This document shows, in pieces, positions 38,922 to 54,152 of a DNA stretch of 55,248 bases. Under the pieces are notes generated by a model, which was given only the letters and a program-made list of their open reading frames with translations, was not told the origin of the DNA and did not search any database. Origin of the DNA: a virus; the IMG/VR virus record IMGVR_UViG_3300032083_002429, positions 1-55,248 of that record; one strand, 5' to 3'. The translations under genes were made by a program, and so were the position numbers. Position 1 is the first letter of the stretch. Every line of letters starts with the position of its first letter.

Positions 38922-39638
38922 TTAAAGGGTAGCTTCGTTATATTTTAAAAAACAAAGTTCAACACATTCCCCATTGGTTTTTCTGTTTGTAAATACCGTG
39001 AAACCTATTTTTTGATAACGTTCTACTATTGAATCTAATTTTAAAAATTGTGCATCATGATCTCCAATATACATTTCACACTCAGCTAAAACTATTTTAG
39101 GAGCTAGACCTAGGTCTAGTATTTCTGTCAGCATCTCATGCCATCGCCCTTCGATGTCTAACTTGATAACATCAACGTCTCGTCCATGCTGTTCAGCTAT
39201 TGTTTTTAAATTTATTGTTTCTACCTCGATTTCGTCATGCGGGTTTTCGGGCCTGTCTAGTTGGTAGCATTTTTTTGAGTCATTGATGGCATAGAATTTT
39301 AGTATTTTTCCGGATTCTTTGTCGTATGCTTTGTTGGTATGCTCGATCCTGTAGCCACCACTGTTGGCACTGTCAACTGTGAGTTGAGATAAAGGTGTTG
39401 GATCCCATGTCAATATCTTTGCAGTTTCGTTATGTTTTCTACAATTTAATTCAAACCTAATTTCTCTCGACACGCCAAAGCACCAATACATGTTGGCCGT
39501 TTCCCTTAACTTGTCGGGTATGCTGTATTGTTTGTGCTTACTCCAGCCTTTGTTATTTGGTTTTTCTTTTGTGTCATTGGCACTAGGAGTCAGAGGAAAT
39601 TTAAGTTCGTACTGTCTACAACGTTCAGAGAGTTTCAT
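38922..39638 (-). CDS. FkbM-like methyltransferase, copy 1
   Basis: The 238 residues contain the C-terminal FkbM motif VIKLDIEGRWHEML followed by KIVLAECEMYIG. A degenerate SAM-site region (MYWCFGVSREIRFEL) precedes a WDPTP motif. The glycine-rich motif I is weaker than in the copy at 42511. FkbM enzymes O-methylate hydroxyls of sugars or polyketides. It is most similar in this window to the protein at 48071, sharing DPTP and the D-I-E-G core. A TATAAATA box ends 7 nt before the ATG, so late, leaderless expression is predicted. Confidence 0.75.
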   Translation of the reverse strand: MKLSERCRQYELKFPLTPSANDTKEKPNNKGWSKHKQYSIPDKLRETANMYWCFGVSREIRFELNCRKHNETAKILTWDPTPLSQLTVDSANSGGYRIEHTNKAYDKESGKILKFYAINDSKKCYQLDRPENPHDEIEVETINLKTIAEQHGRDVDVIKLDIEGRWHEMLTEILDLGLAPKIVLAECEMYIGDHDAQFLKLDSIVERYQKIGFTVFTNRKTNGECVELCFLKYNEATL

Positions 39639-39645
39639 GCAAAGA

Positions 39646-39653
39646 TATTTATA
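39646..39653 (-). promoter_or_regulatory. Perfect late box TATAAATA (minus strand)
   Basis: The box ends 7 nt before the ATG at 39638 on the minus strand. It lies back to back with the plus-strand box at 39655. Confidence 0.7.
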
Positions 39654-39654
39654 G

Positions 39655-39662
39655 TGTAAATA
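39655..39662 (+). promoter_or_regulatory. Late-type box TGTAAATA
   Basis: The box ends 5 nt before the ATG at 39668 and is separated from the minus-strand box by one base pair. Confidence 0.55.
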
Positions 39663-39667: not shown

Positions 39668-40345
39668 ATGAAAATTTATGTAGGGTGGGATCCAAGGGAA
39701 GACATAGCGTACCAGGTTTGTGAACACTCTATCAAGCGTAGAGATGCCGACGCAGAAGTCATTCCACTGAAACAGAATCAGATGCGAGAGCAGGGCATCT
39801 ACACCAGAGAGCTAGACAAGTTAGCCACAACAGAATTCACATTCACGAGATTCTTCGTGCCATACCTTAGCAACTACAAAGGGTGGGCGGTGTTCTGTGA
39901 CTGTGACTTCCTTTGGAAGATCTCTGCAAAGGAACTGGAACAATACTTTGATGATTCCAAAGCAGTGGTCTGTGTACAACATGAGTACACCCCGGAAGAA
40001 GGATCTATCAAGATGGATGCACAAGTACAAACAGCCTATCCCAGGAAGAATTGGAGCAGTATGGTGCTATGGAACTGTGCTCATCCAAAAAACAAATTGT
40101 TGACCCCGGAGTTCCTAAACAAGCAGACTCCAAAGTTCCTACACAGGTTCAGTTGGTTAGAAGATTCGGATATTGGATCACTACCACACGAATACAACTG
40201 GCTAGTAGGTTGGTACGAAGAACCGAAAGATGGTGCACCAAAAATACTACACTACACAGAGGGCGGACCTTGGTTTGACGGGTACAGAGATTGCGAGTAC
40301 TCCGACGATTGGAAGAAAGAAGTCATTAATTTATTTTCAGCATAA
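39668..40345 (+). CDS. GT-A glycosyltransferase (GT8-like)
   Basis: The 225 residues have a GT-A fold layout: N-terminal IYVGWDPREDIAYQVCEHS, the metal-binding DxD at 78-80 in VFCDCDFLW, and a downstream acceptor region (NWSSMVLWNCAHPKNKLLTP). The C-terminal GAPKILHYTEGGPWF supplies a likely His ligand, as in GT8 enzymes. It would transfer a sugar from UDP- or GDP-sugar with retention. Its stop overlaps the next ATG by 1 nt. Confidence 0.8.
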   Translation: MKIYVGWDPREDIAYQVCEHSIKRRDADAEVIPLKQNQMREQGIYTRELDKLATTEFTFTRFFVPYLSNYKGWAVFCDCDFLWKISAKELEQYFDDSKAVVCVQHEYTPEEGSIKMDAQVQTAYPRKNWSSMVLWNCAHPKNKLLTPEFLNKQTPKFLHRFSWLEDSDIGSLPHEYNWLVGWYEEPKDGAPKILHYTEGGPWFDGYRDCEYSDDWKKEVINLFSA

Positions 40346-40779
40346 TGAACTGGGAAAAACTTAAACAGAATCATTACAACAAAGATCCTGTAGAACACAT
40401 CTATTCGAAAACTATATTTGACATGAAAGAGTACGATGATCTTTACGAGAATCAGAACAATTTGTCACACAAGGTATGGAAGAATTTAAGTGAAAAGTAT
40501 GGCATTGAATTTAATTTTCTCAAAGACATAAGAGATTTTGACAAAGACAAAGATGTAATATGTTTGTGGTTTTTTAAAGATCGAGGGGACCGGACTGCAG
40601 GCGAGTACATAAAAATAGCAGGACACAGTATCACATACTATACAAATACATTTTTAATTACTAAATCAAAAGATATACTGATACGGGAGAAAGGATTCAT
40701 ATACAGGCCAGCACTGCAATTAGATTTACCTAGTAGCACATATGATGAGATATTAGAAAGATTTAATAAAATCGTTTAA
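40345..40779 (+). CDS. Uncharacterised protein in glycan island
   Basis: The 144 residues show no recognised motif. The protein is rich in Lys, Asp, Tyr and Phe (YNKDPVEHIYSKTIFDMKEY, VICLWFFKDRGDRT) and probably alpha/beta. It is coupled to the GT8-like gene by a 1-nt overlap and its 3' end overlaps the convergent GT gene by 27 nt. A partner of the upstream glycosyltransferase is possible but unproven. Confidence 0.65.
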   Translation: MNWEKLKQNHYNKDPVEHIYSKTIFDMKEYDDLYENQNNLSHKVWKNLSEKYGIEFNFLKDIRDFDKDKDVICLWFFKDRGDRTAGEYIKIAGHSITYYTNTFLITKSKDILIREKGFIYRPALQLDLPSSTYDEILERFNKIV

Positions 40780-41490
40780 AACATTAACATCGGTCATTAA
40801 GTGTCTGTCATTGACCTTTGACCAAGTGTAATTGTCCTTCCCGATGATGTTTAAATTTCCCCTTACTGCCCTTCCCGTGTCATCGGATATTTTTTTTGCT
40901 TTAAATTCCACCTTCGGTAAAAAAAGACAACGATTTAATTTCCTAGCAACTTTTTGCGTCCATGTATCAACGTACCAGTGCCAAAAAAACGGTGGTGCCA
41001 GATATCCCACAGTGTTGATCCAGTTTTTGTGAAGTGCAAAGTGTGGGGCTCCGAATGGCTCGTCCTCTATCAATATTGGGTGCTTGCCATTATAATATCT
41101 TTGTTGATTTAGCTGTCTTGTTACTGCTAATCTGTTCCCTCTGCCATCGTTTGGGATCACCATCAATATCTTGTCATCGTATTTGTCAAACTGGTCCACG
41201 ATCTGCTGGTCCCAATTTCTTGTCCTCACTTGCACATCGTCACCCATTAACATCACAATATCGTGTTTGGCTCTCTGGGCCATGAGATTCCAACTGAGAC
41301 AAGTGGATTGATTTGGTCCAACTGTGTAGTGTTTTTCGTCTATAGTATCTCTGTATTGTTCAAGCGTTGGATCATCATCGTTGAGATAGAACAGGAATTC
41401 GGTGTCACTTTTTTGTGTTTCGGAGGCTGTCCGGATCAAATGTTTTGCTAGTTTGGGCCTACCCCTCGATGGACAACAGAATGAGATCAT
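40753..41490 (-). CDS. GT-A glycosyltransferase (GT2-like)
   Basis: The 245 residues start with ISFCCPSRGRPKLAKHLIRT, typical of GT2-like enzymes. The sequence continues with FLFYLNDDDPTLEQY and HDIVMLMGDDVQVRTRNWD, where the two acidic clusters fit the nucleotide- and metal-binding positions. A C-terminal PPFFWHWYVDTW region may form the acceptor site. Its start overlaps the upstream epimerase stop by 4 nt on the minus strand, so the two are co-translated. The 3' end overlaps the plus-strand gene at 40345. Confidence 0.8.
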   Translation of the reverse strand: MISFCCPSRGRPKLAKHLIRTASETQKSDTEFLFYLNDDDPTLEQYRDTIDEKHYTVGPNQSTCLSWNLMAQRAKHDIVMLMGDDVQVRTRNWDQQIVDQFDKYDDKILMVIPNDGRGNRLAVTRQLNQQRYYNGKHPILIEDEPFGAPHFALHKNWINTVGYLAPPFFWHWYVDTWTQKVARKLNRCLFLPKVEFKAKKISDDTGRAVRGNLNIIGKDNYTWSKVNDRHLMTDVNVLNDFIKSF

Positions 41491-42491
41491 ATCAATTTAT
41501 TCTTCCAAGTCTCTGGGGTCTTGTCATTAATAATTTCCAATGGCAAGTGATATTGGAACTTCTTTGTTCCCCTAGATCTTATGTATTCTGCAGTCTTTTT
41601 AACTGACTGCCGCATGTTAGTCGCTGTGCTGTAACCTAATAGTTCTCTTGCCTTGTCCGATGAACACACTGCTAGTTTAACTTCCTTGGGTCTGTCCTTG
41701 TGGTGTATAGGATCTAAGTTGATTCCTGTTTCATTGGCACAGGCTTCTGCTAATTCATTAATCGTAATTGGTTCCTCGTCCGGTCCTATGTTTATTATCT
41801 CGCCAACGACATTGTCCTGGAATGCCAGTGCGTTCAAACAGTACAAGCAATCATCAATGTAACTGAAACATCTCTGTTGTTTACCATCTCCGTAAATGAT
41901 CGGTTGCTTGCCTTGTAACATCCTGTTCAACATGATAGACATAACGTTTCTAAATGGGTCGTCATACTTCTGTCTTGGTCCTACTATGTTGTGCGGTACA
42001 GCAATAACATACTCTACCCCATGTGTTTCACACAGATTTCTTAATACATCTTCACCGGCTTTCTTTGCAATACCATATGGATCCTGTGGACGACATTCGT
42101 AGTCTTCCTTGTACGGCATTTGATCATGGTGGCCATATCTTGCCATGCTTGAACAATACACAATACGTTTGACTTTGTTTCTTATTGCCGCTGTAATGGT
42201 TGTGACCGATGCTTCAAAAATATTCCTTGTCACCAACACAGGAGAAAACACAGACAGCCCCTCATAGGCAGTAGCGGCAGTGTGATAAACTATGTCACAT
42301 CCTTCCATTGCTTTGGTCATGTTCTCTAGATCACAACAGTCTACTTGGTGGAACTCGACGTCCTGTGGTACGTTGTCCGTGTATCCGCCTATCATGTTAT
42401 CATTACCGGCAACAGTGTGACCCTGTGATAGCATCAAATCTGCTAGGTGTGATCCTAGGAATCCTGCCACGCCTGTAATAAAAATCTTCAT
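41487..42491 (-). CDS. NAD-dependent sugar epimerase/dehydratase
   Basis: The 334-residue extended short-chain dehydrogenase has TGVAGFLG at 6-13 as the NAD-binding Gly motif, CSSMARYG at about 113-120 providing the catalytic Ser, and YGIAK with Y139 and K143. The C-terminal half shows the nucleotide-sugar-binding pattern (PIIYGDGKQQRCFSYIDD, then NIGPDEEPITINEL). It converts UDP-, GDP- or dTDP-sugars (4-epimerase or 4,6-dehydratase class). The exact substrate cannot be read. A late box ATTAAATA precedes the ATG by 6 nt. Confidence 0.9.
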   Translation of the reverse strand: MKIFITGVAGFLGSHLADLMLSQGHTVAGNDNMIGGYTDNVPQDVEFHQVDCCDLENMTKAMEGCDIVYHTAATAYEGLSVFSPVLVTRNIFEASVTTITAAIRNKVKRIVYCSSMARYGHHDQMPYKEDYECRPQDPYGIAKKAGEDVLRNLCETHGVEYVIAVPHNIVGPRQKYDDPFRNVMSIMLNRMLQGKQPIIYGDGKQQRCFSYIDDCLYCLNALAFQDNVVGEIINIGPDEEPITINELAEACANETGINLDPIHHKDRPKEVKLAVCSSDKARELLGYSTATNMRQSVKKTAEYIRSRGTKKFQYHLPLEIINDKTPETWKNKLI

Positions 42492-42497
42492 TTCGAG

Positions 42498-42505: not shown

Positions 42506-42510
42506 TTAAG

Positions 42511-43137
42511 TTATGGACGGTGAAAAACTTTGTCTGGCCAGTGCCCCATCAGTAGCTCGAACCCTAATAATCTTATGTGTTTTTCAATTTCAATGTTATT
42601 ACTACCATACTTCTTAGTGTTGTTGTTTAACTCTATCATTAGATACTGTACACTTTCTAATGTCTTTGTTGCACCTTTAAGCACTTCCATTTCGTAGCCT
42701 TCCACGTCTATCTTGATCATATCTACGTCATCTAGTCCAAGGCTATCAACTGTAATCATAGGAATACTGCCTTCACCTACGACCCTTCTACTCTGTGTAA
42801 AATCATCCTGCGATAGTGATATCATTTTTTGTTCTGCTCCAATGGCAAGCTGATGTGTTTCTACATCGTCACCTACATTTTTTACGAGACATTCATAATG
42901 CAGTCCTTCCGGTTCAAAAGCAACCACTCGTCCACAGTACTCATTCATGGCCATGCTCCATGTTCCAACCCATGCACCGATGTCCAATATGTGATTGAAT
43001 TTTTTATTGTGTTTCTTACAATAATCTTGGAACTGTAAGAGACATTTGTTTTGTGTGAAAGGCTTGCCTGCTTTCCAATCAGTGAGATGTATATCATTGC
43101 TGGGTACCCAGAACCCATTTACTTTTTCTATGTTCAT
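42511..43137 (-). CDS. FkbM-family methyltransferase, copy 2
   Basis: The 208 residues are a clear FkbM methyltransferase: motif I HILDIGAWVGTWSM, VVAFEPEGLHYECL, and the C-terminal IKIDVEGYEMEVLKGATK with LMIELNN. It would transfer methyl from SAM to a sugar hydroxyl. It overlaps the upstream SGNH gene by 4 nt on the minus strand, so both are made together, and 19 nt separate it from the epimerase gene. Confidence 0.88.
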   Translation of the reverse strand: MNIEKVNGFWVPSNDIHLTDWKAGKPFTQNKCLLQFQDYCKKHNKKFNHILDIGAWVGTWSMAMNEYCGRVVAFEPEGLHYECLVKNVGDDVETHQLAIGAEQKMISLSQDDFTQSRRVVGEGSIPMITVDSLGLDDVDMIKIDVEGYEMEVLKGATKTLESVQYLMIELNNNTKKYGSNNIEIEKHIRLLGFELLMGHWPDKVFHRP

Positions 43138-43910
43138 AATATCTTTTCAACTAGAGGCATTAACTGTTTGGCCCATGCCTGTTGTCCCGGGACGTTTGGA
43201 TGGTCATCTAACTCGGAAACTACTAGATGATTTTTTAGGCTCCAACCGTGCTGGCACTCATTAAAATTGCCTTGTAATTTATAGTATCTTGTTTGATCAA
43301 CCATAGACAATAATTCTTTACACTCGTAAGTTAATGGATCATCGAATCCATTGTAAAGAGCATTGTACATCAGGTAAGGCACACTATTTGCTTTAAAATA
43401 GTTTTGCATATATAATATTTGCGTAGCTGTCCTAATCTGCCCTTCTTCTTCAATTGCAGGATGATATTCTCTTCGACCTTTGTTGACCCATGGATCAAAT
43501 CGGATTTCCTTGTAAGCAGGGGTTTCTTCCAGACCTACCATTTTCCAAGTGTGCCAATGACTAGCTTCTCTTCGAAGACCTGGTTCTACAGAGGTTGTAA
43601 GTCCTTCGCGACGATTGTAACTTGTTAATCCTACCAGAACAAAGGATTTTTTCAAAGAAGTCTGTAGCAGTTTCCTAACTATTCTCTCGTTACTGCCACC
43701 GTTTTCTGCCACCATCACATACTTTGCATCTAGATGATCCGCAATTATCCTGCCACAGCTTGTAGGGTCATTTATTTTTACGTTGTACTGTTTTTCTAAT
43801 TCTCTTCTCAGTTTCAAATGAACGTAAGCACCAGATCGAAGTCCTGGCATGTAGGCCGGTACTGCGTTTCCAACAGCAAAAGAACAACCAAAGTGGATTA
43901 ATTTTTTCAT
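43134..43910 (-). CDS. SGNH-hydrolase-like protein, copy 1
   Basis: The 258 residues have the SGNH layout: FGCSFAVGN near the N-terminus as block I with the nucleophile Ser, ENGGSNERI as the Gly/Asn block and DDHPNVPGQQAWAKQL near the C-terminus as the D-x-H block. Such enzymes are esterases or acyl-transferring enzymes on glycans or lipids. The paralogue at 44697 shares the blocks GCSF, G-x-x-N-x-R-I and HP...G...QWAKQL, and a TW-x-TWK motif. It overlaps neighbouring genes on both sides, so it is part of one minus-strand operon. Confidence 0.78.
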   Translation of the reverse strand: MKKLIHFGCSFAVGNAVPAYMPGLRSGAYVHLKLRRELEKQYNVKINDPTSCGRIIADHLDAKYVMVAENGGSNERIVRKLLQTSLKKSFVLVGLTSYNRREGLTTSVEPGLRREASHWHTWKMVGLEETPAYKEIRFDPWVNKGRREYHPAIEEEGQIRTATQILYMQNYFKANSVPYLMYNALYNGFDDPLTYECKELLSMVDQTRYYKLQGNFNECQHGWSLKNHLVVSELDDHPNVPGQQAWAKQLMPLVEKIL

Positions 43911-44722
43911 TATAATATTCCTTTGTCCAATAATATCTCAACTGCTGTGCCATTAGCAAATTCCTCCGGTGTGAACTGCTGATAGGCAAGACTGTATAGC
44001 CATGGTTCTGGGCCTCCGTAGTATGGATTCTCAATGTCAGATAATTCTATGCCGGCAACATCTACAGCAAAACTTTTTTCATGGCAGAACACAGGCACGC
44101 CCTCACACATGGCCTCCACTGCCGCAATTGAACAACTAGTAACCAAGCACCAAGCATCTTTTAGATCCTCAGACAACGGAACTTTTGCTTCGCTAGGGCC
44201 TGACGTTCCTCTTCCACGCGGCTTTTCTCTAATTTTTATTGGTCTGTCTGTGTATCTTTTGATCTGTTCTACAGTATCTTCTGTCCAATTGGGCCGGTCA
44301 AGGTAATCGTTTATTCCTGCCGAACTTGGACACACTAACACATAAGATCCTTGGAAGTTTGGTGCTTTTATCTTCAGGCCAAACTTTTCAAATCTGTCTG
44401 CTTTACACCCTTTAATATAACTTGCATGAATTTTATTTTTTGATATTCGCCAATAATGATTGTCGGGTTTTAGATTGTTGTTGTCAAATCTACCAAAGTA
44501 AGGCGTGTCTGTAAACCAAAACGGATGCTTACGTTTTTCTAACTGCTTGATCATTTGCATGTTGTTGTTCACAAATCCCCAGTACATGGAATTAGCAAGT
44601 GGCTCCGCTGTAACACCGTTGTCTAATATCTTGACCAGATCTGGCCATGAATGTTCTATCCCGTTGAACACTTCCCAGGCCTTGCTTTTCTTATTATTAT
44701 ATGGTGCGTAGATTGTTAGCAT
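43910..44722 (-). CDS. Capsule-synthesis-like GT-B family protein, copy 1
   Basis: The 270 residues follow a pattern shared with 47252, 48888 and 52519: YTDRPIKIREKP in the middle, then AWCLVTSCSIAAVEAMCEGV, PVFCHEKSFA, LSDIENPYYGGPEPWLYSLA and FANGTAVEILLD. The layout resembles the C-terminal donor-binding half of KpsC/KpsS-like capsule polysaccharide enzymes, where a Ser/Thr-Glu-Gly-Val-Pro-Val-Phe segment binds the nucleotide. A polysaccharide transferase role is inferred. It overlaps the next upstream gene by 26 nt. Confidence 0.7.
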   Translation of the reverse strand: MLTIYAPYNNKKSKAWEVFNGIEHSWPDLVKILDNGVTAEPLANSMYWGFVNNNMQMIKQLEKRKHPFWFTDTPYFGRFDNNNLKPDNHYWRISKNKIHASYIKGCKADRFEKFGLKIKAPNFQGSYVLVCPSSAGINDYLDRPNWTEDTVEQIKRYTDRPIKIREKPRGRGTSGPSEAKVPLSEDLKDAWCLVTSCSIAAVEAMCEGVPVFCHEKSFAVDVAGIELSDIENPYYGGPEPWLYSLAYQQFTPEEFANGTAVEILLDKGIL

Positions 44723-45362
44723 CTATAAATTCCTTTAACTGTTTTGCCCACTGTTCGTGGCCTTCTGCTGACGGATGTGGATCGTTAGAACTCACTATTA
44801 AATTTTTGTCTGTGATAAATTCAAAGTGACTTACCGTTGGACTGAAAAATCTGTCCATGTTAATTGCATTTCTAATAACATTAAAGTCTTCTGTGCCGTT
44901 ACCAAAATAATTTGGCAAAGAGTTATACATCACATAAGGTATTCGCCTACGTTCAAAGTAATTCTGTAAATCAAAAACATTATCAAGGAAATTCATAGTA
45001 AGATTGTTTTCTATATCCCAGCCCTTGTTTTTGCGTATAAAACTTACGTTGTCTAATGTCTTCCAGGTTCTCCATGTGAGCTCCGTGCCTGGTATGCGAC
45101 CTTTCTTCCATCCATCGTCTGTTATGTAATCGTTCCTGACAGCACTGGACCAGCCTATCACAGCGAAAACATCTTTGTCTTTGTTCTGTTCACACCAAAC
45201 TTTGGTAGAAAAACTTATCCTAGTATTACCACGGCCTCCCATTGCTATGTTAAACAGTTCTTCATTATAATTTTCCGCTATAATTTTGCTTACGAAAGTA
45301 TCAACCCCATCCTTAGGACGTGGCGTTAGGAAACTACAACCGTTAGAAAATATCTTGGACAT
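44697..45362 (-). CDS. SGNH-hydrolase-like protein, copy 2
   Basis: The 221 residues match the copy at 43134: SNGCSFLTPRP (nucleophile block), AMGGRGNTRIS (Gly/Asn block), TWRTWKTL and DPHPSAEGHEQWAKQL (Asp-x-x-His block). A deacylase, acyl esterase or acyltransferase on a glycan is the likely class; the substrate is unknown. It is the first gene of the leftward operon and starts 29 bp from the divergent GT61-like gene. Confidence 0.75.
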   Translation of the reverse strand: MSKIFSNGCSFLTPRPKDGVDTFVSKIIAENYNEELFNIAMGGRGNTRISFSTKVWCEQNKDKDVFAVIGWSSAVRNDYITDDGWKKGRIPGTELTWRTWKTLDNVSFIRKNKGWDIENNLTMNFLDNVFDLQNYFERRRIPYVMYNSLPNYFGNGTEDFNVIRNAINMDRFFSPTVSHFEFITDKNLIVSSNDPHPSAEGHEQWAKQLKEFIDANNLRTI

Positions 45363-45367
45363 ACAGC

Positions 45368-45376
45368 TATTTTATA
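45368..45376 (-). promoter_or_regulatory. TATAAAATA box for leftward glycan operon
   Basis: The box ends 5 nt before the ATG at 45362 on the minus strand. It may be a late box with one extra A or a sigma70-like element; the two cannot be told apart here. Confidence 0.4.
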
Positions 45377-45377
45377 G

Positions 45378-45383
45378 TATAAT
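45378..45383 (+). promoter_or_regulatory. TATAAT box for rightward glycan operon
   Basis: TAGTATAAT ends 8 nt before the ATG at 45392. It matches the element ahead of the dNMP kinase gene, suggesting earlier expression than the late-box genes. Confidence 0.45.
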
Positions 45384-45391
45384 TATTATAA

Positions 45392-46480
45392 ATGCAAACG
45401 GTAAAAAATATTACAGACATAAGATACTTCTTGGAAAGATTTGAGACCATAGACCAAGGGTACAATTACCAAGTTGATTATCACGAACAAGCAGAGAGTC
45501 ACTTTTCCTCACTACCAACATTCGTAGCGGAATTTGATAACTGTTTGGTCAACAGTTGTCCAATATTGGTAACGGAGGATCGGCACCTTATAACAAATCA
45601 TGTATGGGGGCTTGTACACAAAAGCAGGCATCAACCACACAAGTCACACAAACTTTGGACCGAATGGGGAGATAATGTTGACCTAAGACTTCCTCCTGTT
45701 ACCAAACAGTTCGATGAAAGAAATAAATTCGTATGGCTACCGATAGACGAAGGTAGTGCAGGAAATCCATGGCATGTATGGATTGACATGATATCTAAAT
45801 TTCGTTTACTTGAAAAGAGATGGAGTACTAATTTCACAAAGTACATCTTTATACTTCCCACCCCAAGTTCGTATTTTGATAAAGTTGCTAAAGAACTGTT
45901 TCCAGAATTAAGATATTTTATTATACCCAAGGATGAAACATGGCGGTTTAAACATTTGATAGTGCCATCATTGAGCAATCATAATGACGGAGTGCTGACA
46001 CCTACTCTGGCTCCATGGTTAAGACACTTCAAGGGATCGTTCGGAATACCAGAAAATCAAAAACCGTTCAGGAAAATATTCATATCACGTGACAAAGCAC
46101 GTAGCAGGAAAGTAAACAATTCCAGTGAACTACTGATTGCTTTAAAAGGTTGGGAGTCAGTAATACTCGAAGACTTACCAATAAGAGAACAGATCAAAAT
46201 ATTCGCTGAAGCGTCACACGTATTAGCAACACACGGTGCAGGGTTGGTAAACATCATGTGGTGCAAAGAAGGGACAAAGATTATTGAGATACAAGATGAA
46301 AAAGCACTACACAAAAAAGTATATCCGTTGTTGTCAAACAACTTGAAGTTAAAACACGAAGTGTATGTTGCAAACACAGTCCAGAAAAATTTAAACGGAG
46401 CCAAACCAATTGGAACAAAAAGATGGCAAATGGTAGATTTTGAAATTAACATTCCTGATTTAATTAGACATCTGGACTGA
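45392..46480 (+). CDS. GT61-like (DUF563) glycosyltransferase
   Basis: The 362 residues end with the pattern typical of GT61/DUF563: ATHGAGLVNIMWCKEGTKII with E following, preceded by the RKIFISRDKARSRKVNN segment and an IREQIKIFAEASHVLA helix. The family transfers xylose, GlcNAc or related sugars to glycans. It is the first gene of a nine-gene rightward operon and lies in a divergent arrangement with the SGNH gene at 44697. Confidence 0.85.
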   Translation: MQTVKNITDIRYFLERFETIDQGYNYQVDYHEQAESHFSSLPTFVAEFDNCLVNSCPILVTEDRHLITNHVWGLVHKSRHQPHKSHKLWTEWGDNVDLRLPPVTKQFDERNKFVWLPIDEGSAGNPWHVWIDMISKFRLLEKRWSTNFTKYIFILPTPSSYFDKVAKELFPELRYFIIPKDETWRFKHLIVPSLSNHNDGVLTPTLAPWLRHFKGSFGIPENQKPFRKIFISRDKARSRKVNNSSELLIALKGWESVILEDLPIREQIKIFAEASHVLATHGAGLVNIMWCKEGTKIIEIQDEKALHKKVYPLLSNNLKLKHEVYVANTVQKNLNGAKPIGTKRWQMVDFEINIPDLIRHLD

Positions 46481-46492
46481 TATCATTTATAG

Positions 46493-46498: not shown

Positions 46499-46499
46499 C

Positions 46500-47255
46500 A
46501 TGTATTCATTATTACAGAAAAAATTAACAGTACAGGCAGATCCTTATCCACATGTGGTCATAGAAGATGCCTTACCATGGGATCTGTACGAACAACTAGA
46601 AAGAGAATGGCCGGAGCAACAACTACTGGCTACACAACCGCACGACAACGGAATATGTTACAGGTTAAAAGCAGATAGTATGCTAAGGCCAGGCCTGGTG
46701 TCGGAAACATGGAGAAAATTTACAGAGTATCATACAAGTGTTAAATTCTACAATGAGGTTAAAAATATTTTTAAAGATTATATTACTGATTTACCCAACG
46801 TTGAAAATACTCTAAGTCCTCGTGGTTGGGACAACGGTAATGACATGATAGGAACTGATTGTCAGACAGTCATGCATTCTCCTATTGATTTCAGTTCAAG
46901 GACGCCGCACATCGATAACCCCAGGGAGATATATGCCGGTCTACTTTACATGCCTTATCCCGAAGATGATAGCACGGGTGGGGAATTCCGGATACACAGA
47001 TCGGTTGGTCAGATAAAAAGAGTGAATAAAAACGGTGGTAGGGAAGTGGGAGTTGAAAATCAAGGGAGTATTGTCAAGTCTGTTCCGTACAAGAGGAATA
47101 CATTTGTGATGTTTTGTAATAACTCCAGTAACACGGTGCACAGTGTTTCTAAAAGAGAAAACGCTACCTTACACAGAAGAAGCGTTAATGTTATCGCAGA
47201 GTATAATAGAGTGGCCAAGAAGTCCATGTTTGAGATTGAGGAGTTCAGGAAATGA
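46500..47255 (+). CDS. 2OG-Fe(II) dioxygenase
   Basis: The 251 residues carry the iron ligands H137 and D139 in RTPHIDNPREIYAGLLYMPY and the distal His at about 214 in SNTVHSVSKRE. An Arg in LHRRSVNVI binds 2-oxoglutarate. Such enzymes hydroxylate proteins, glycans, nucleobases or small metabolites. Placement in a sugar operon suggests a sugar or glycan substrate, but DNA-base or protein hydroxylation cannot be excluded. The stop overlaps the next ATG by 4 nt. Confidence 0.85.
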   Translation: MYSLLQKKLTVQADPYPHVVIEDALPWDLYEQLEREWPEQQLLATQPHDNGICYRLKADSMLRPGLVSETWRKFTEYHTSVKFYNEVKNIFKDYITDLPNVENTLSPRGWDNGNDMIGTDCQTVMHSPIDFSSRTPHIDNPREIYAGLLYMPYPEDDSTGGEFRIHRSVGQIKRVNKNGGREVGVENQGSIVKSVPYKRNTFVMFCNNSSNTVHSVSKRENATLHRRSVNVIAEYNRVAKKSMFEIEEFRK

Positions 47256-48070
47256 ATCTAGCAGGCATACACACGACCAAACCACGTACACAGAGATACG
47301 TAGATGCTTTTGTTAAAGGAACCCCAGGGGCATCAAAGATATATCAATTCCGAGATTTGAAAGAACTACCCCCGGAGGATCTAACAATGTACGGTATACT
47401 CGCAGGCTCCGGTGAAATATATAAAAGATGTGAGCAGGAAAAGAAAGATTTCTATTTCATGGATCATGGCTATTTTACAAACGCACATGACAAACCACAC
47501 TGGTTACGTATTACAAAAAATGCACATTGCCAGACCAAACTTACAAATACCAACCCAGATAGATATGAGAAATATTTCAAACGTGAGCTGAAACCATGGC
47601 AAAAGGACGGCAAGAAGATTTTAGTCCTGCCACCAACGAATGCTGTTGCTGGATTCTTTAACGCAACCGGATGGCTAGATGAAACTGTAAAAGTACTGAA
47701 AGAAAATACTGATAGGCCCATTGAGGTCAGAGAAAAACCTTACAATCCCACTATCGCTACGGACCATGTTGGAGCAACAGTAAAAGTGGATGAACCCACA
47801 AACCACCAACCAAGCATCTCCTGGAATGAATATTTTGCTTGTGTGACTTATAACAGCACTACGTTCATTGAAAGTTTTACTAACGGTGTGCCTGTGTTTT
47901 GTGATCCAAATGTCTGTGGTGCAACGCCGATAGCCGGAACAGATTTTACCAAGATAGAAAAACCTAGATATGAGGACAGGGTTGCATTGTTTTCCAATCT
48001 AGCATACAACAACTGGACCATGGAAGAAATGTCCAACGGCACGGCATGGAAGATGCTCAAAGGTTACTAA
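47252..48070 (+). CDS. Capsule-synthesis-like GT-B family protein, copy 2
   Basis: The 272 residues contain the family blocks: NTDRPIEVREKPYNP, YFACVTYNSTTFIESFTNGV, PVFCDPNVCG, TKIEKPRYEDRVALFSNLAY and NWTMEEMSNGTAWKMLKGY. It is most like the copy at 43910 in size and blocks. The N-terminal half is variable and likely holds the acceptor site. It is coupled to the oxygenase (4-nt overlap) and directly followed by the FkbM gene. Confidence 0.7.
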   Translation: MNLAGIHTTKPRTQRYVDAFVKGTPGASKIYQFRDLKELPPEDLTMYGILAGSGEIYKRCEQEKKDFYFMDHGYFTNAHDKPHWLRITKNAHCQTKLTNTNPDRYEKYFKRELKPWQKDGKKILVLPPTNAVAGFFNATGWLDETVKVLKENTDRPIEVREKPYNPTIATDHVGATVKVDEPTNHQPSISWNEYFACVTYNSTTFIESFTNGVPVFCDPNVCGATPIAGTDFTKIEKPRYEDRVALFSNLAYNNWTMEEMSNGTAWKMLKGY

Positions 48071-48898
48071 ATGGCAGATAGAATTAATCCAGAAACAGTC
48101 GAGACAGTTAAAGCAATAAGAGAATGGGAGAGAAAAAATAATTTCAAAGAGGCCTGTGATCTTCCGGGATTCACATCGTACAAGAACTATTTTGTGCCAG
48201 ACTCTATTGTGGAATCTAGCAAGACTGTTTTGACTTTTGGCGTAGGTGGTAATGTTGGCTTTGAGAAATTAGTGGCATTTGCCAACAAGGATATACATGT
48301 TGAGATGTATGATCCTACTCCATGGAGTGTGTCTCTGATAGAACACATAGTAGACAGATCAAGCAGGAACACAATCAACGCTGGAACAGGATGGACCGGC
48401 AACACTGCTAGAAACAAGGCAGTTGTTAAAAGAATACATTTTAATCCCGTTGCATATGCTCCAGAGAATGGCACACTGCCGTTCTACTATGATCCGGCTC
48501 GCGAGTCCGAGGGAGAAACAATATCAATGCAACAACAAAGTTTTTCCTTAATAAAAAGACAAGATCACTTTAAGTCATTAAACGTAAAAGCTAAAAATTT
48601 ACAATCCATATTGGAAGCACTTGGACTAACAAGTGTTGACATCATTAAAGCAGACATAGAAGGACTATGGTGGGATTTCGGCAACGAAATTCTAGACAAA
48701 AAGATAAACTGTAAGTTTATAGCACTTGAGTTAGAATTGAATTTTGAGAAGGACGGGAAGGTCGAAACAGCACTAGAAAAAGCACAGATACTGTGTGACA
48801 AGTTTAAAGAAAACAACTACGACATTGTGATAAACAGGAGAAGAGAGAAGCTGATGTTAGAAATGCTTTTCATAAAGAAAGACGCTTATGAAGGTTGA
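48071..48898 (+). CDS. FkbM-like methyltransferase, copy 3
   Basis: The 275 residues include VLTFGVGGNVGFEKLV as a SAM-site region, MYDPTPWSV (the same DPTP motif as the copy at 38922) and the C-terminal IIKADIEGLWWDFGNEIL with KFIALELELNF. A central insertion of about 40 residues has no counterpart in copy 2. It is a probable sugar O-methyltransferase. Its start abuts the preceding stop and its end overlaps the next gene by 11 nt. Confidence 0.78.
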   Translation: MADRINPETVETVKAIREWERKNNFKEACDLPGFTSYKNYFVPDSIVESSKTVLTFGVGGNVGFEKLVAFANKDIHVEMYDPTPWSVSLIEHIVDRSSRNTINAGTGWTGNTARNKAVVKRIHFNPVAYAPENGTLPFYYDPARESEGETISMQQQSFSLIKRQDHFKSLNVKAKNLQSILEALGLTSVDIIKADIEGLWWDFGNEILDKKINCKFIALELELNFEKDGKVETALEKAQILCDKFKENNYDIVINRRREKLMLEMLFIKKDAYEG

Positions 48899-49871
48899 GA
48901 TATTCAGGAGAACAGTAAAAGATCGTAAACGTGGTAACAGTTGGGAACTGCTGTATCATTTAGCGGAAGGAATCAAGGCCGCAGGAGACGAAGCCGTTAT
49001 TGTCAACGAAGATAGGTCCGGGCCCACTGTCAAAGGTGAGATGACTCCAACAGCGCCAATGGCCGCCATGTTTGGATACGGGGGTGATCAACAGATGCAC
49101 CACACCAAAGGCAGGCGTAGGGAACTGGCAGACAACTGCAGGGCCAAGAAAATCCCATTGATCACATTTGACGGTGGACTGTTATCTAGTTTTGGTAATG
49201 TTTCGACATCACCTGATCATCATTTCAGGGTGTCCTTGTACACGCCAATGAACGACGGCGACTTCCTATCAGATAACAGTCCTAGCGATCGTTGGGAGAT
49301 GTTGGTCAAAAAATTTGATGTGAAGCACGAACCATGGAGAAAATCTAATCAAGACGATCCAATCATATTTGTAATGCAACCGAAGGACAACTGGAGCATG
49401 AATGAACTGGATCCGATAGATTGGTTCAACGGAGTCTATGAAAAACTAAGACCGGCGACAAGTAGGAAATTTATTGTGCGGCCTCATCCAAACAATGTGT
49501 CAAACATTCTAGAACGTGAGAATGAACTACCCGACGATGTTGAAATTCAATACACACAAAAAAATTTTGTTGGTGACGAAAAAAAATATTACAGATTCCA
49601 TTTTCAAGAAGCCATTTCAAATGCACACGCTGTTGTAACCCATAACAGTACAGCTAGTGTTGACAGTTGCATCAGGGGTATACCAACTTTCTGCACATCG
49701 GATCTGGCATTGTGTTGGGACGTTTGTAACAAAGATCTCAACGACATAGAAACACCAAAGACCCCAGACAGGACACAATGGGTCAATGACCTTGGATACA
49801 AGCTATGGAGTATACAGGAGATCAAAGACGGCACTGTGTACAAAAGATTCAAAGAAAGATTAGGATTGTAA
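48888..49871 (+). CDS. Capsule-synthesis-like GT-B family protein, copy 3
   Basis: The 327-residue protein is the longest of the four paralogues. It has RKFIVRPHPNNVSNIL, AISNAHAVVTHNSTASVDSC, IRGIPTFCTSDLALCWDV and IETPKTPDRTQWVNDLGYK followed by LWSIQEIKDGTVYKRFKE. An RPHP motif is shared with copy 4 and is seen in other GT-B capsule enzymes. The N-terminal half includes a possible nucleotide- or acceptor-binding region (MFGYGGDQQMHHTKG). It overlaps its neighbours on both sides. Confidence 0.7.
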   Translation: MKVEIFRRTVKDRKRGNSWELLYHLAEGIKAAGDEAVIVNEDRSGPTVKGEMTPTAPMAAMFGYGGDQQMHHTKGRRRELADNCRAKKIPLITFDGGLLSSFGNVSTSPDHHFRVSLYTPMNDGDFLSDNSPSDRWEMLVKKFDVKHEPWRKSNQDDPIIFVMQPKDNWSMNELDPIDWFNGVYEKLRPATSRKFIVRPHPNNVSNILERENELPDDVEIQYTQKNFVGDEKKYYRFHFQEAISNAHAVVTHNSTASVDSCIRGIPTFCTSDLALCWDVCNKDLNDIETPKTPDRTQWVNDLGYKLWSIQEIKDGTVYKRFKERLGL

Positions 49872-51589
49872 TGTGTGGCATATACGGTATAACAGCAGAA
49901 GATCCTGAGTTCATACAGAACTTTATAAAAGTTTGTAAGCACAGAGGCCCCGACGGAGAACGTGTGTGGTGGGATGAAACAGTGACCCTCGGACATAATT
50001 TATTAAGCATCATGGCAAATCCGGACCTATCAAGACAACCATGGAAGACACCCAAGGGTAACATGCTTGTATACAATGGTGAGATATTCAACTACTACGA
50101 ACTGAAAGAGAAATACAAAGACTTCAATGATACAACTGGTTGTGACACAGAACTACTTGCGTGGGGTTTGGACAAGTTTGGTTTGAACTTTATTGATGAG
50201 ATAGATTCAATGCACGGCTTTGCTTACTATGAAGTTGACAAAGGCAGAATTACTTTAAGTAGGGATCATGCAGGAATCAAACCAGTGTACTATGCAGAAA
50301 TAAAAGAGGGACTAGTGTTTGGGTCGGAGATCAAAGGCATGTTAGACAAGGTTCCGGGCTCGAGGACATTATACAATGTGGCTGTTGATTTCCAGAACAA
50401 GACAGGAATTAATCCCCTAAGGGAGACAGTGTTCACAGGTATAAAAAAACTACTCGCCGGTGAAACTATTGTGTACGACATCGCACAAAAGAAAATTATA
50501 GATACAAAAAGAATATTCATTAGGCCGAACTGCAATATCAAATTTAAACCAGAAGAATTCAGAAAGCAATTACATCAAGCAGTCAAAAGGTGTTCGATAG
50601 GACAAAGAAAGATAGGAGTGTTCTTGAGCGGTGGTCTGGACTCTGGCGTGGTGGCACATGAGCTAATGAAGGTCAAGGGTGAGGTAAACTCTTTCACAAA
50701 TAGAATAAGTCCGGAGGTTGTTGCAGATGAGGATTACAACAGTGACGCTAAGGTGGCAAAAATACTTGCGAAAAAAGAAGGTTACAATCATACAGAAGTT
50801 AAAGTAACACCCAAGGAATACATAAGCAACTGGAAAGATTCTATCTACTACATAGAAGAACCGATCCATAGTTCTGCTATGCCCATGTACTTCCACACAA
50901 ATAAAATATTGGCCAAGAACGATATAGTTGTGACCATTGCAGGAGATATGGGAGACGAAATACTAGGCGGCTATCCAAACTACCAGCAGATGTTCATGAT
51001 GAAAAACAGTATCAACAGTTGGAGTGATGTTTTGAAATTATGGTTCCGGAGATTGAAAGGACCTATCACGGATGAGGTAGTAGAATTATCTGATGAATAC
51101 CTCCTAGGAGAGTTTGCTAAATGTTATCCAGATGATTTATGGAATCCTGAAGATCCTGTCGCTTCCTACATGGCTTTAGATTGTGTAACGCAAGTGCCTG
51201 CAGATTTCTTCAGCAGGAATGACAAGTACGGCATGGCGCACAGCATGGAAGGACGTTTTCCATTGGCCTCAAAAATTTTCATGCAATACTGTTTAGATAT
51301 TCCAACAAAACATAAAGTCGGCAGTACTTCTGACCGTACAAAACTGCTAATAAAAAAAGCATATAGAAATATATTGCCTGATGAAGTCATAGGCAAATCA
51401 AAAACCGGATGGACAGTCCCTGTGGGATATTGGTTAACAGATAAACACGATGTTGAACTAGAGGCTTTTTATAAATCAGCCATGGGATCAGAGATTTTAG
51501 ACAAGGTAAGTTCTAATCAAAAAGCAAGTAAAAGATTGATACCCAGGTGGCTAGTAAAAGATTGGAGGGCAGAATATGATATTAAATAG
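49871..51589 (+). CDS. asnB: Asparagine-synthetase-type glutamine amidotransferase
   Basis: The 572 residues start with MCGIYGITA, so Cys2 is the glutaminase nucleophile after Met removal; HRGPDGE and YNGEIFNY complete the glutaminase site. The synthetase half begins with the PP-loop FLSGGLDSGV (SGGLDS at 253-258) and later has GDMGDEILGGYPNY. All catalytic residues are present. In surface-glycan clusters this family often amidates a uronic acid or amino-acid substituent rather than making free asparagine. The ATG at 49871 is used because the Cys must follow Met; an upstream in-frame ATG is inside the previous gene. Confidence 0.93.
   Translation: MCGIYGITAEDPEFIQNFIKVCKHRGPDGERVWWDETVTLGHNLLSIMANPDLSRQPWKTPKGNMLVYNGEIFNYYELKEKYKDFNDTTGCDTELLAWGLDKFGLNFIDEIDSMHGFAYYEVDKGRITLSRDHAGIKPVYYAEIKEGLVFGSEIKGMLDKVPGSRTLYNVAVDFQNKTGINPLRETVFTGIKKLLAGETIVYDIAQKKIIDTKRIFIRPNCNIKFKPEEFRKQLHQAVKRCSIGQRKIGVFLSGGLDSGVVAHELMKVKGEVNSFTNRISPEVVADEDYNSDAKVAKILAKKEGYNHTEVKVTPKEYISNWKDSIYYIEEPIHSSAMPMYFHTNKILAKNDIVVTIAGDMGDEILGGYPNYQQMFMMKNSINSWSDVLKLWFRRLKGPITDEVVELSDEYLLGEFAKCYPDDLWNPEDPVASYMALDCVTQVPADFFSRNDKYGMAHSMEGRFPLASKIFMQYCLDIPTKHKVGSTSDRTKLLIKKAYRNILPDEVIGKSKTGWTVPVGYWLTDKHDVELEAFYKSAMGSEILDKVSSNQKASKRLIPRWLVKDWRAEYDIK
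51581..51588 (+). promoter_or_regulatory. Late-type box ATTAAATA over the end of the amidotransferase gene
   Basis: The box ends 10 nt before the ATG at 51599 with AGGAG in between. It could give an internal late transcript for the last three operon genes. Confidence 0.35.
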
Positions 51590-51598
51590 GAGTATATC

Positions 51599-52519
51599 AT
51601 GAAAACACTAGCAGTCGTTACAACGTTCCCACCAAACAGATGGACAGCATATGCAAAGAGAATGTTGGAAAGCCATATACAATACTGGCCAGATGATGTT
51701 GTACTGTATGCGTACCACGAAGGTGACAAACCAGAACTAGAGCATGACAAAATAAAATTTATACAGATAGAAGATGCCAACCCAGAGCTTGTTAAATTTA
51801 AACAAAGACACAAAAACGATCCCGTGGCCAACGGTGAGGTGGACGAGATCATCGGTGGTGTCAGGAGAAACCCCATGGCGGGAAAGAATGATAAAGGCAA
51901 GGGCTCATACCTATGGGACGCTGTGAGATTCTCCCACAAGACCTTTGCTGTGGACCATGCAATCAAGAACATAGACACAGATTATGTTTTATGGTTAGAT
52001 GCCGACACATACACATTCAGGCCAATCACAACAGAGTTTGTTACTGGGCTACTACCCGAAGATAAGCTCGTGAACTTCTTAGGGAGGGGTGAAAAATATC
52101 CAGAATGTGGGTGGGTGTGCTACAACAAGAAGCATCCAAAAATTACAGAATTCATGCAGTACTGGACAGACCTTTACATCAAAGACACCATATTCAAAGA
52201 GTTGGAATGGCACGACAGTTACCTGTTCTGGCAGTGTGTCAAACGTGTGGCACCCAACGACGGTGTGGACATAGGCAAAGGTGCAGGTGCCAAAGGACAT
52301 CATGTGTTCATCAACAGCGTGTTAGGAGCATACGTGGATCATATGAAAGGCAAAAGGAAAGTGCAAGGTAAAAGTAGCAAGAGTGACCTACGTGGAAACA
52401 GGAACGAGGACTACTGGAAGAACGTGGAGAACTACGATCCGTTCAGTGGTGTGAAGTTTGATCCAAAACAGGCCAGTGACATAGTGAGCAAAGTCGCAAA
52501 GGGCGACGAAGGAAACTAA
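51599..52519 (+). CDS. GT-A glycosyltransferase-like protein
   Basis: The 306 residues have an N-terminal LAVVTTFPPNRWTAYAKRML and a clear DxD at 134-136 in YVLWLDADTYTF, typical of metal-dependent GT-A enzymes. Downstream, ECGWVCYNKKHPKITEFMQY and LEWHDSYLFWQCVK may line the acceptor site. The C-terminal 40 residues are basic. A dedicated AGGAG ribosome-binding site is present. The donor and acceptor are unknown. Its stop overlaps the next ATG by 1 nt. Confidence 0.78.
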   Translation: MKTLAVVTTFPPNRWTAYAKRMLESHIQYWPDDVVLYAYHEGDKPELEHDKIKFIQIEDANPELVKFKQRHKNDPVANGEVDEIIGGVRRNPMAGKNDKGKGSYLWDAVRFSHKTFAVDHAIKNIDTDYVLWLDADTYTFRPITTEFVTGLLPEDKLVNFLGRGEKYPECGWVCYNKKHPKITEFMQYWTDLYIKDTIFKELEWHDSYLFWQCVKRVAPNDGVDIGKGAGAKGHHVFINSVLGAYVDHMKGKRKVQGKSSKSDLRGNRNEDYWKNVENYDPFSGVKFDPKQASDIVSKVAKGDEGN

Positions 52520-53391
52520 TGAAAATAAGTTGTTTTACGGATTACGGACCACTGAACTCTAAACCTGTGTTTGAGGCATTCATGAAAAGCATGAGACAGG
52601 CCGGCGACACAGTGTTTGAGAACAAGGATGACGGACAGTGTGACGTCGCTGTCATATGGTCAGTGCTGTGGCAGGGCAGGATGGCCAAGTATCGCAACAT
52701 ATGGGACACCTATAGGAACAAAAATAAACCTGTTGTTGTTATAGAAGTGGGTGGCATAAAGAGAAATGAAACTTGGAAGATAGGAATTAATGGTGTAAAC
52801 AGAGAAGCAGATTTCCATAATGACAGCGTAGGTAGAGAACGTTGGGGTAAATTTAATGTGGAACTGAGGCCATGGAAGCAGACAGGCCATGATATAATTG
52901 TGTGTGGACAACACACGAACAGTCACCAGTGGAGGAACAATCCCCCGATGTCAAAATGGTTTGATCAACAGATAACAGAGATCAGGAAGTACACGGACAA
53001 GCCTATCATCATCAGGCCACATCCTAGGAATCATGTTTTAATAGACACTGCAAAATACAAGGATGTAAAAATAGTAGGACCTAAAAGAGATAGGAACACA
53101 TACGACGACACAGACCTCGCAGAGAGATTGAAGTCAGCATGGGCTGTGGTCAGTCACTCGAGCAATCCTGCCATGACGGCGGCGTTTGCAGGAATACCCG
53201 TGTATGTTTCCGAGGCCAGTCTGAGTTACGATGTTGGCAATAAAACATTCGAGAACATTAACAATCCTGACATGCCCGATAGACAAAACTGGGCAAACAA
53301 GCTATCATACACCGAATGGTGGACAGATGAGATAGAGCAAGGACTGCCATGGAAAAGAATTAAAAAGAGACTAGAGGAGAAATATCTATAA
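52519..53391 (+). CDS. Capsule-synthesis-like GT-B family protein, copy 4
   Basis: The 290 residues contain HDIIVCGQHTNSHQW, YTDKPIIIRPHPRNH, LKSAWAVVSHSSNPAMTAAF, AGIPVYVSEASLSYDV, PDMPDRQNWANKLSYTEWW and EIEQGLPWKRIKKRLEE, the full block order of the family. It is closest to copy 3, with RPHP and PDRxxW. It is coupled by 1-nt overlaps to genes on either side. Confidence 0.7.
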   Translation: MKISCFTDYGPLNSKPVFEAFMKSMRQAGDTVFENKDDGQCDVAVIWSVLWQGRMAKYRNIWDTYRNKNKPVVVIEVGGIKRNETWKIGINGVNREADFHNDSVGRERWGKFNVELRPWKQTGHDIIVCGQHTNSHQWRNNPPMSKWFDQQITEIRKYTDKPIIIRPHPRNHVLIDTAKYKDVKIVGPKRDRNTYDDTDLAERLKSAWAVVSHSSNPAMTAAFAGIPVYVSEASLSYDVGNKTFENINNPDMPDRQNWANKLSYTEWWTDEIEQGLPWKRIKKRLEEKYL

Positions 53392-54152
53392 TGACTATTT
53401 TAAGAAACTTGCCTGGTGCAAGACAATCGTTGGATCCCATACAATGGAAACCCTACGAGGGAGAGACAGTCAACACACATCTCACAATACGTAAGGGAAA
53501 GAAGATTCAGGAGACTGCCTACTATGAGGACAGGGTCAAGGCAGTGCCACGTGGCAATGCATACTGCATAGGTAACGGACCTTCACGTAAAGGATTTGAT
53601 CTTACCAGATTGACGGCAACAGGACAGACTTATGGATGTAACGCACTGTACAGAGATTTCGTTCCTGACTTTATTTTTTCAATAGACTCCCCTATAACAT
53701 TAACCATGGTCAACGACAAAGTCTATGAGAAGTGTATCCACTACTCTACTTCTCTAGAAGTTAATCGTTATCCAAAAGGTGGCCCATCACACCTACACCT
53801 GATCCCAAACAACCCACACTGGATATGTGGCAACCAGGCCATATGGACAGCAGGAGTACACGGACACAAGAACATATATCTACTGGGATTTGACTTTAGG
53901 GAGTACGGCAAGGGACAACTTAATAATATATACCAGGGCACAGAGAACTATGGAGAGCGGCATGCAGATACAATTTTTGATGGTTGGTTGAAACAGTTTC
54001 GGGACATGCTGAAATTACGACCGTATGTCAACTACGTTATGGTACACGACAACCCACCGGAGTACATGCACAACGTACAGACAGGCACCGACTTAGGCAA
54101 CAGTAAAATTATAAGTTACAAAGAGTTTGAAAAGGTATTAGCACCTAGCTAA
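53391..54152 (+). CDS. Sialyltransferase-fold / DUF115-like enzyme, copy 2
   Basis: The 253 residues share the block order of the protein at 2116: YCIGNGPSRKGFDLTRL, YGCNALYR, PDFIFSIDSP, then NQAIWTAGVHGHKNIYLLGF with DFRE. An N-terminal extension of about 50 residues is absent from copy 1. CstII-type GT42 and MptE/DUF115 proteins have the same core. It is the last gene of the rightward operon and overlaps the convergent SprT-like gene by 15 nt. Confidence 0.72.
   Translation: MTILRNLPGARQSLDPIQWKPYEGETVNTHLTIRKGKKIQETAYYEDRVKAVPRGNAYCIGNGPSRKGFDLTRLTATGQTYGCNALYRDFVPDFIFSIDSPITLTMVNDKVYEKCIHYSTSLEVNRYPKGGPSHLHLIPNNPHWICGNQAIWTAGVHGHKNIYLLGFDFREYGKGQLNNIYQGTENYGERHADTIFDGWLKQFRDMLKLRPYVNYVMVHDNPPEYMHNVQTGTDLGNSKIISYKEFEKVLAPS

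Follow-up and report, generated by a model that had tools for sequence, protein, structure and literature searches.

What might a phage assemble with 15 kb of sugar-handling enzymes, and onto which acceptor? The window studied here, the whole 55,248-base stretch of IMG/VR virus record IMGVR_UViG_3300032083_002429, represents part of the genome of a T4-like myovirus, and its positions 38922-54152 hold an island of such genes. An earlier reading made from the letters of the window (the sequence-only reading) had proposed that the island could build and decorate an oligosaccharide, with host surface polysaccharide, a virion glycan or modified DNA as targets. It had also called the phage T4-like, a label confirmed at the sequence level, since the window's homologues of gp20, gp21, gp23, gp18, gp19, gp17, a gp32-like single-stranded DNA-binding protein, UvsX and UvsY all match PHROGs. 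We find that the island is a fixed locus in which a conserved transferase skeleton is combined with recombining cassettes, and we read it, at a probability of roughly 0.45, as a glycan-assembly locus, with virion proteins (one or several) as the most likely acceptor.

A fixed transferase skeleton with exchanged slots

The island consists of 18 intact open reading frames (ORFs) bounded by a HAD-like gene (38285) and an SprT-like gene (54138). They lie in four strand blocks, 38922 (-), 39668-40779 (+), 40753-45362 (-) and 45392-54152 (+), and adjacent ORFs are spaced from -27 to +29 nt. The sequence-only reading had described fifteen consecutive genes coupled by 1-26 nt overlaps; a dense cluster of glycan enzymes does fill the interval and such overlaps are right for many pairs, but the alternating strands exclude a single operon and both figures need the correction given here. 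By family, the ORFs comprise three FkbM methyltransferases, three glycosyltransferases (GTs) of GT-A type, four paralogous GT-B enzymes, a GT61 enzyme, an epimerase, two SGNH-like proteins, a 2-oxoglutarate- and Fe(II)-dependent (2OG) oxygenase, an AsnB-type amidotransferase and a GT42-like transferase, together with one protein that has no family match.

Scans with UvsX and AsnB yielded 123 IMG/VR loci, 21 of which were compared gene by gene. Loci of the closer group (UvsX about 84-93%) have the island between uvsX-uvsY-HAD and sprT, and wherever the contig covers them the skeleton genes keep their order and strand in all 21 loci. The first is GT39668 (39668..40345, +), a GT-A-type enzyme with a DxD motif (FCDCDF) that matches phrog_28018 and, at profile level, WbbM (E=0.0014). 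It is followed by the GT-B enzyme GTB1 (43910..44722, -), by the SGNH-like protein SGNH2 (44697..45362, -; PF19547 DUF6071, E=1.3e-6), which occurs in three allele groups, and by the GT61 enzyme (45392..46480, +; PF04577, E=5.5e-23). Then come the GTB1 paralogues GTB2 (47252..48070, +), in four allele groups, and GTB3 (48888..49871, +), the GT-A enzyme GT51599 (51599..52519, +; DxD motif WLDADT), a further GTB1 paralogue, GTB4 (52519..53391, +), and finally the GT42-like, sialyltransferase-type transferase (53391..54152, +; phrog_30607, E=1.5e-22). In the one exceptional locus (L099), SGNH2 had been missed by ORF calling, and tblastn locates it at 89%. None of the genes is broken, and 21 other loci show this skeleton in the same position; the cluster therefore stands above chance. 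Among more distant relatives (UvsX about 75-79%), GT39668 and GTB-type genes are often retained downstream of uvsY.

Between the skeleton genes lie slots with alternative contents. Slot 1 holds a GT2-like glycosyltransferase (40753..41490, -; phrog_14945, E=2e-28; PF00535, E=2.8e-4, below cut-off), a nicotinamide adenine dinucleotide (NAD)-dependent nucleotide-sugar epimerase/dehydratase (41487..42491, -; PF01370, E=1.6e-48), whose nearest solved structures are UDP-glucose 4-epimerases, and allele B of the methyltransferase FkbM2 (42511..43137, -; PF05050, E=1.3e-17), or else another methyltransferase, mostly c8, with FkbM2 allele A. The epimerase accompanies FkbM2-B in 9 of 9 loci and FkbM2-A in none of 10, an association of 1e-5 if the loci are taken as independent, which holds only in part. 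Slot 2 holds the 2OG oxygenase (46500..47255, +; PF13640 (2OG-FeII_Oxy_3), E=5e-5, below cut-off; HxD...H...R motif) with particular GTB2 and GT51599 alleles, or a GDP-mannose 4,6-dehydratase, accompanied in several loci by an extra GT51599 copy. When slot 1 (epimerase or none) is crossed with slot 2 (GTB2 allele A or B), all four combinations are present (counts 4, 2, 6 and 4), so that recombination or repeated replacement is needed to explain them. Where present, the epimerase is 90-98% identical, above UvsX (median 89%), whereas identity is as low as 41% for the neighbouring FkbM2 alleles and 39% for those of SGNH2. Products of the replacement genes include the GDP-mannose dehydratase (PF16363, E=5e-117), Sulfotransfer_1, Sulfotransfer_2, LicD and FkbM proteins and a SPASM protein (radical SAM). 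The island thus has a trait of bacterial O-antigen and capsule loci, namely conserved flanks around exchangeable sugar-synthesis and transferase genes.

Could the island instead be a set of unrelated auxiliary genes that a recombination hotspot has gathered and that make no common product? Single genes do turn over rapidly, and the AsnB-type glutamine amidotransferase (49871..51589, +; PF00733, E=4e-52, Asn_synthase plus GATase; SGGLDSG PP-loop) could feed amino-acid supply, as it passes the asparagine synthase model (NCBIfam TIGR01536, above cut-off). Against such a chance gathering stand the roughly nine skeleton genes in fixed order across all loci, the joint travel of GT2 with the epimerase and of a GT with the GDP-mannose dehydratase, and the fact that nearly all replacement genes with a family match are plausible glycan enzymes; we regard it as improbable. 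The transferase skeleton, the co-travelling modules and the decoration enzymes strengthen the earlier proposal that the gene set could build and decorate an oligosaccharide.

The AsnB start was corrected to 49871, where it overlaps the preceding stop codon (TAATG) and yields an N-terminal MCGIYG with the catalytic Cys. Its matches in cultured phages are remote (24-29%), and it is missing in 3 of the 21 relatives (L012, L018 and L021).

Predicted folds of the transferases

GTB1, GTB2, GTB3 and GTB4 are mutual paralogues (E from 1e-10 to 4e-29; blastp of GTB2 to GTB1, E=3.5e-29) with no significant family match. Structure prediction, which the sequence-only reading had suggested as a check, returned for GTB1 an AlphaFold2 model with a predicted local distance difference test score (pLDDT) of 87.8 and a predicted template modelling score of 0.86, and this model has the fold of the retaining 3-deoxy-D-manno-oct-2-ulosonic acid (Kdo) transferases KpsC, WbbB and KrkA. 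In a Foldseek search of the PDB, the top thirteen matches are KpsC, KrkA and WbbB, the best being KpsC (E=1.3e-7). By VIA-align, KpsC and WbbB entries reach Z 10.0-11.2 over 220-234 residues and make up the 12 best entries (best Z 11.2, root-mean-square deviation 5.0, 227 of 270 residues), KrkA reaches Z 8.1-8.2, and single-domain GT-B matches stay at or below Z 8.4. Thus, only Kdo transferases match GTB1 over its whole length above Z 8.4.

At the sequence level the resemblance is weak. Identity of GTB1 to KpsC, WbbB and KrkA is 8-14%, there is no PF05159 match, and in PDB sequences the GTB profile finds no KpsC chain. With hhalign, only the C-terminal nucleotide-binding half aligns with the KpsC-type profile (E=2.6e-4, probability 42%), an alignment made at profile level with GTB3 that includes the region of the HP and (S/T)-E motifs. 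In the N-terminal half, a predicted strand ends in a conserved Asp (GTB1 D72, GTB2 D71, GTB3 D95; Glu in GTB4); the profile alignment to KpsC, whose nucleophile is D160, stops short of this residue. We therefore say that GTB1 resembles, and may work like, a retaining Kdo transferase in fold, and assign no family membership. It also differs from these bacterial enzymes as a single 270-aa protein, phage-encoded and present in four divergent copies. Among viral structures, GTB1 is nearest to proteins of uncultured phages, of Caulobacter phage CcrColossus and to the 'capsule' proteins of Tetraselmis virus 1.

The GT42-like profile matches Campylobacter sialyltransferases in two blocks (E=1.9e-6 to 2wqq). 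Its member at 53391 has a paralogue at 2116, and both proteins share a GNGPS-type donor motif and an overall likeness to Cst-I and Cst-II; an alignment of orthologues does not keep the candidate catalytic His, which lies near residue 191. The AlphaFold2 model of GT51599 is a GT-A fold with a pLDDT of 71, GT6-like as predicted (best Foldseek match BoGT6a, E=2e-6) and poor over its last 70 residues; its profile finds no relatives among PDB sequences.

These resemblances bear on a competing explanation, in which the enzymes would extend or cap a lipopolysaccharide (LPS) core, O-chain or capsule intermediate of the host at the cytosolic face of the inner membrane, so that an altered receptor blocks other phages (superinfection block) or stops progeny from sticking to debris. 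The Kdo-transferase, GT42 (lipooligosaccharide sialyltransferase) and WbbM-like matches are all to surface-polysaccharide enzymes, and authors working on pelagimyophages prefer a host-surface role for their glycosyltransferases (PMC7029224). By Pfam and PHROG, however, the island has no Wzx, Wzy or ABC export, flippase, polymerase or lipid-carrier initiating transferase, and hydropathy analysis of the 18 ORFs detected no transmembrane helix in any island protein (maximum KD19 1.58, an NAD-binding strand of the epimerase).

The virion as the most likely acceptor

Two genes outside the island tie glycan enzymes to the structural genes. The GT42-like paralogue (2116..2736, +; blastp to 53391, E=2e-23; phrog_4603 sialyltransferase, E=5.6e-5) lies between gp20 (portal) and gp21 (prohead protease), a position that it holds in 27 of 36 related T4-like phages. 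A sulfotransferase-like gene (8227..8940, +) directly follows gp23 (major capsid). Its protein has both binding motifs for 3'-phosphoadenosine 5'-phosphosulfate (PAPS), at residues 8 and 99: a 5'-phosphosulfate-binding HIPKTAGSSL and a 3'-phosphate-binding RHPLKRDISHF. Three orthologues at 63-65% keep equivalents of these motifs and likewise follow gp23, at a distance of up to about 2 kb. The sequence-only reading had named this gene a sulfotransferase; the PAPS-binding motifs speak for that call, while neither the protein nor its three orthologues matches any Pfam sulfotransferase model. We found no 8227 orthologues in cultured phages. For the 2116 gene, the cultured phages that match are pelagiphages only (HTVC008M and Mosig).

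Parts of the same transferase set, here the kernel, recur outside the group. GT39668 homologues are found in Pelagibacter, Caulobacter, Stenotrophomonas and Synechococcus phages. In profile searches, Pelagibacter phage Mosig has the run GT51599-GT39668-GTB-sulfotransferase-GTB; the Caulobacter siphophages CcrColossus and C1 have GT42-like (weak)-GTB-GTB-GT39668 directly after a tail gene and before lysis genes; a podovirus has GT51599-GTB beside its capsid genes; and other genomes have GT39668 without further kernel genes. A virion acceptor is favoured because the GT42-like paralogue lies between the portal and protease genes and a sulfotransferase-like gene follows gp23, and because the kernel adjoins a tail gene in the Caulobacter siphophages and capsid genes in the podovirus. 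The head-operon placement of the paralogue, and the neighbourhood of kernel and structural genes in phages of differing morphology, also count against a host-surface target.

We infer active enzymes, an oligosaccharide with its donor sugars and, most cautiously, a virion acceptor. The soluble skeleton transferases (GT39668, GTB1-4, the GT61, GT6-like and GT42-like enzymes) would use nucleotide sugars of the host to build a cytosolic oligosaccharide, the donors probably including cytidine monophosphate (CMP)-activated acidic sugars such as Kdo. Exchangeable cassettes would then alter the sugars (epimerase with GT2, GDP-mannose dehydratase with a GT) and the decorations (O-methylation by FkbM enzymes, sulfation, esterification or de-esterification, hydroxylation and amidation). 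Abundant virion proteins, one or several, would be the most likely acceptor, and both the GT42-like enzyme of the capsid operon and the sulfotransferase linked to gp23 would take part in the same pathway. Phages with differing cassette sets would carry differing glycan types, much as bacterial serotype loci do. A more specific form, in which a self-contained cytosolic, serotype-like system covers the phage's own capsid or tail in a sulfated, methylated oligosaccharide that contains Kdo, and in which recombination swaps cassettes so as to alter the glycan type, strikes us as possible but less likely than not.

Several points weigh against a virion glycan. KpsC, WbbB and the LPS-core transferases work on lipid-linked glycans although they too are soluble or peripheral proteins, and the absence of membrane helices is therefore compatible with host LPS as a target. 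In some marine alphaproteobacterial single-cell genomes (L240 and L248), GT39668-GTB-TPR protein-GT51599-GTB stands amid housekeeping genes (rpe, purH and a thioredoxin-like gene); the kernel therefore exists in bacteria as well. With part of it on some alphaproteobacterial chromosomes, the product may be a surface glycan of bacteria. The HTVC008M GT42-like gene lies outside the head operon, and AsnB may be a plain asparagine synthetase. The promoter-like elements of the island (TATAGTATAATT-like) are unlike the upstream regions of the structural genes, so that late co-expression of the island is not supported. With these points counted, a host-surface target remains a credible if somewhat less probable destination.

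DNA hypermodification, in which sugars would be placed on hydroxylated pyrimidines of the phage genome as protection against restriction, has precedents: phage-encoded transferases put sugars on DNA elsewhere, including a pentose in phage Thanatos (PMC12838424), and sugar-modified phage DNA is the subject of Pyle 2024 as cited in PMC12619734. The island also encodes a 2OG oxygenase. That oxygenase matches PF13640 and not Tet_JBP (a dedicated Tet_JBP search was uninformative, its control being silent), and its gene is absent from many relatives that retain the skeleton. No PF00303 protein (thymidylate synthase/dCMP-dUMP hydroxymethylase family) was found in four relatives of 182-210 kb, although one 104-kb relative does carry a thymidylate-synthase-family protein. 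Four Kdo-type transferases, sulfotransferases and LicD are, moreover, unsuited to a nucleobase. We consider this target very unlikely. Of the three targets first proposed, modified DNA is accordingly disfavoured, and virion and host surface both remain, with gene context favouring the virion.

Several contigs touch on the distribution of the kernel. One filed under Candidatus Neomarinimicrobiota (PBPT01000016.1, 335 kb; L232) has UvsX, UvsY and the glycan kernel, and looks like a large T4-like phage contig binned into a metagenome-assembled genome (MAG); two others (L224 and L225) look like phage contigs inside bacterial MAGs. In cyanophage S-SCSM2R (L129, 209814-213339), a GT39668 homologue shares a gene run with annotated KdsB and KdsA genes (CMP-Kdo supply). 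By profile this cassette has no GTB-family gene, and we treat the Kdo supply as suggestive, not as proof.

Comparison with known systems

The sequence-only reading had called the gene set an unusually full toolkit. This is fair for the present phage group, but pelagimyophages also have glycosyltransferase-rich hypervariable regions (PMC7029224). Their host-recognition cluster resembles the island as a large variable region of marine T4-like phages, rich in glycosyltransferases and sugar enzymes. Its place, however, is within the structural region, flanked by VrlC and gp14, and it includes tail fibres (PMC7029224), whereas the island occupies the uvsX-uvsY/sprT site, has no tail-fibre gene and combines a fixed transferase skeleton with recombining cassettes. 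In Corndog-type (cluster O) mycobacteriophages, O-methyltransferase and GT genes lie between portal and protease (PMC4351075), a likeness in gene position and in the presence of methyltransferases; that set has four genes in total, whereas the window phage has one GT42-like gene at that place and a separate 18-gene island. Mycobacteriophage capsid and tail-tube glycans are reported according to Freeman 2023 as cited in PMC12619734. For T4-like phages, virion glycosylation was looked for in the literature searched and not found.

Chlorovirus PBCV-1 likewise encodes soluble, cytosolic transferases and sugar-nucleotide enzymes, including a GDP-mannose dehydratase, and variants of its capsid glycan act as antigenic types (PMC7019647). 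It is a eukaryotic nucleocytoplasmic large DNA virus with a solved glycan structure; the window holds a clustered bacteriophage locus. The Caulobacter jumbo siphophages (CcrColossus gp126-131, C1 gp162-167) share a GT42-like gene (weak), two GTB genes and GT39668 in a row, with FkbM in C1, but their cassette is short and lies behind a tail gene and ahead of lysis genes. Bacterial O-antigen and capsule loci differ from the island in the export and lipid-carrier initiating functions that it lacks.

Glycan genes in such marine phages, mycobacteriophage virion glycans and chlorovirus antigen-type variation are already known. Three features appear to be new: at uvsXY-sprT, a fixed skeleton combined with recombining cassettes; the predicted Kdo-transferase fold in the family of four GTB paralogues; and the placement of a GT42-like gene within the head operon. 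Marine-phage glycan genes are usually catalogued singly as LPS-related auxiliary genes; here the fixed locus, conserved transferase skeleton, recombining cassettes and Kdo-transferase-type folds suggest one joint product. If the product is on the virion, particles with recombining glycan types would bear on adsorption and on recognition of the particle by others, and would be a bacteriophage counterpart to the autonomous capsid glycosylation of chloroviruses. If it is on the host, the island would be an unusually elaborate exclusion system.

Accessory genes and promoter-like elements

The remaining ORFs occupy accessory positions. FkbM-type methyltransferase 1 (38922..39638, -; PF05050, E=7.4e-7), present in 1 of 21 relatives, and FkbM-like methyltransferase 3 (48071..48898, +; PF05050, E=2.6e-4) are paralogues (E=8e-19). 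The protein without a family match (40345..40779, +; 144 aa) occurs in about half of the relatives. SGNH-like protein 1 (43134..43910, -) is a paralogue of SGNH2 (E=9e-14) with a weak DUF6071 match and GCSF and DxHP motifs. Most of the original enzyme calls are backed by Pfam, NCBIfam, PHROG or fold, and several, namely the FkbM protein at 48071, the GT2 at 40753, the 2OG protein at 46500 and one SGNH protein, fall under Pfam curated cut-offs.

The intergenic region between SGNH2 and GT61 contains a divergent promoter-like element, TTATAGTATAATT (45363..45391), with similar sites at 39649, 46487 and 54631. Seven matches were found against 2.1 expected, none of 100 shuffles reached seven, and the element is kept in relatives. 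The T4 late-promoter motif ATAAATA, with 14 matches against 9.1 expected, is not enriched in the island. The TTATAGTATAATT repeats lie immediately upstream of start codons and leave scant room for a Shine-Dalgarno sequence; this arrangement suggests short-leader or leaderless transcripts for island genes. Elsewhere in the window, the tail sheath protein (22224-25652) is 1142 aa long, far above the 496 positions of the common sheath profile phrog_23.

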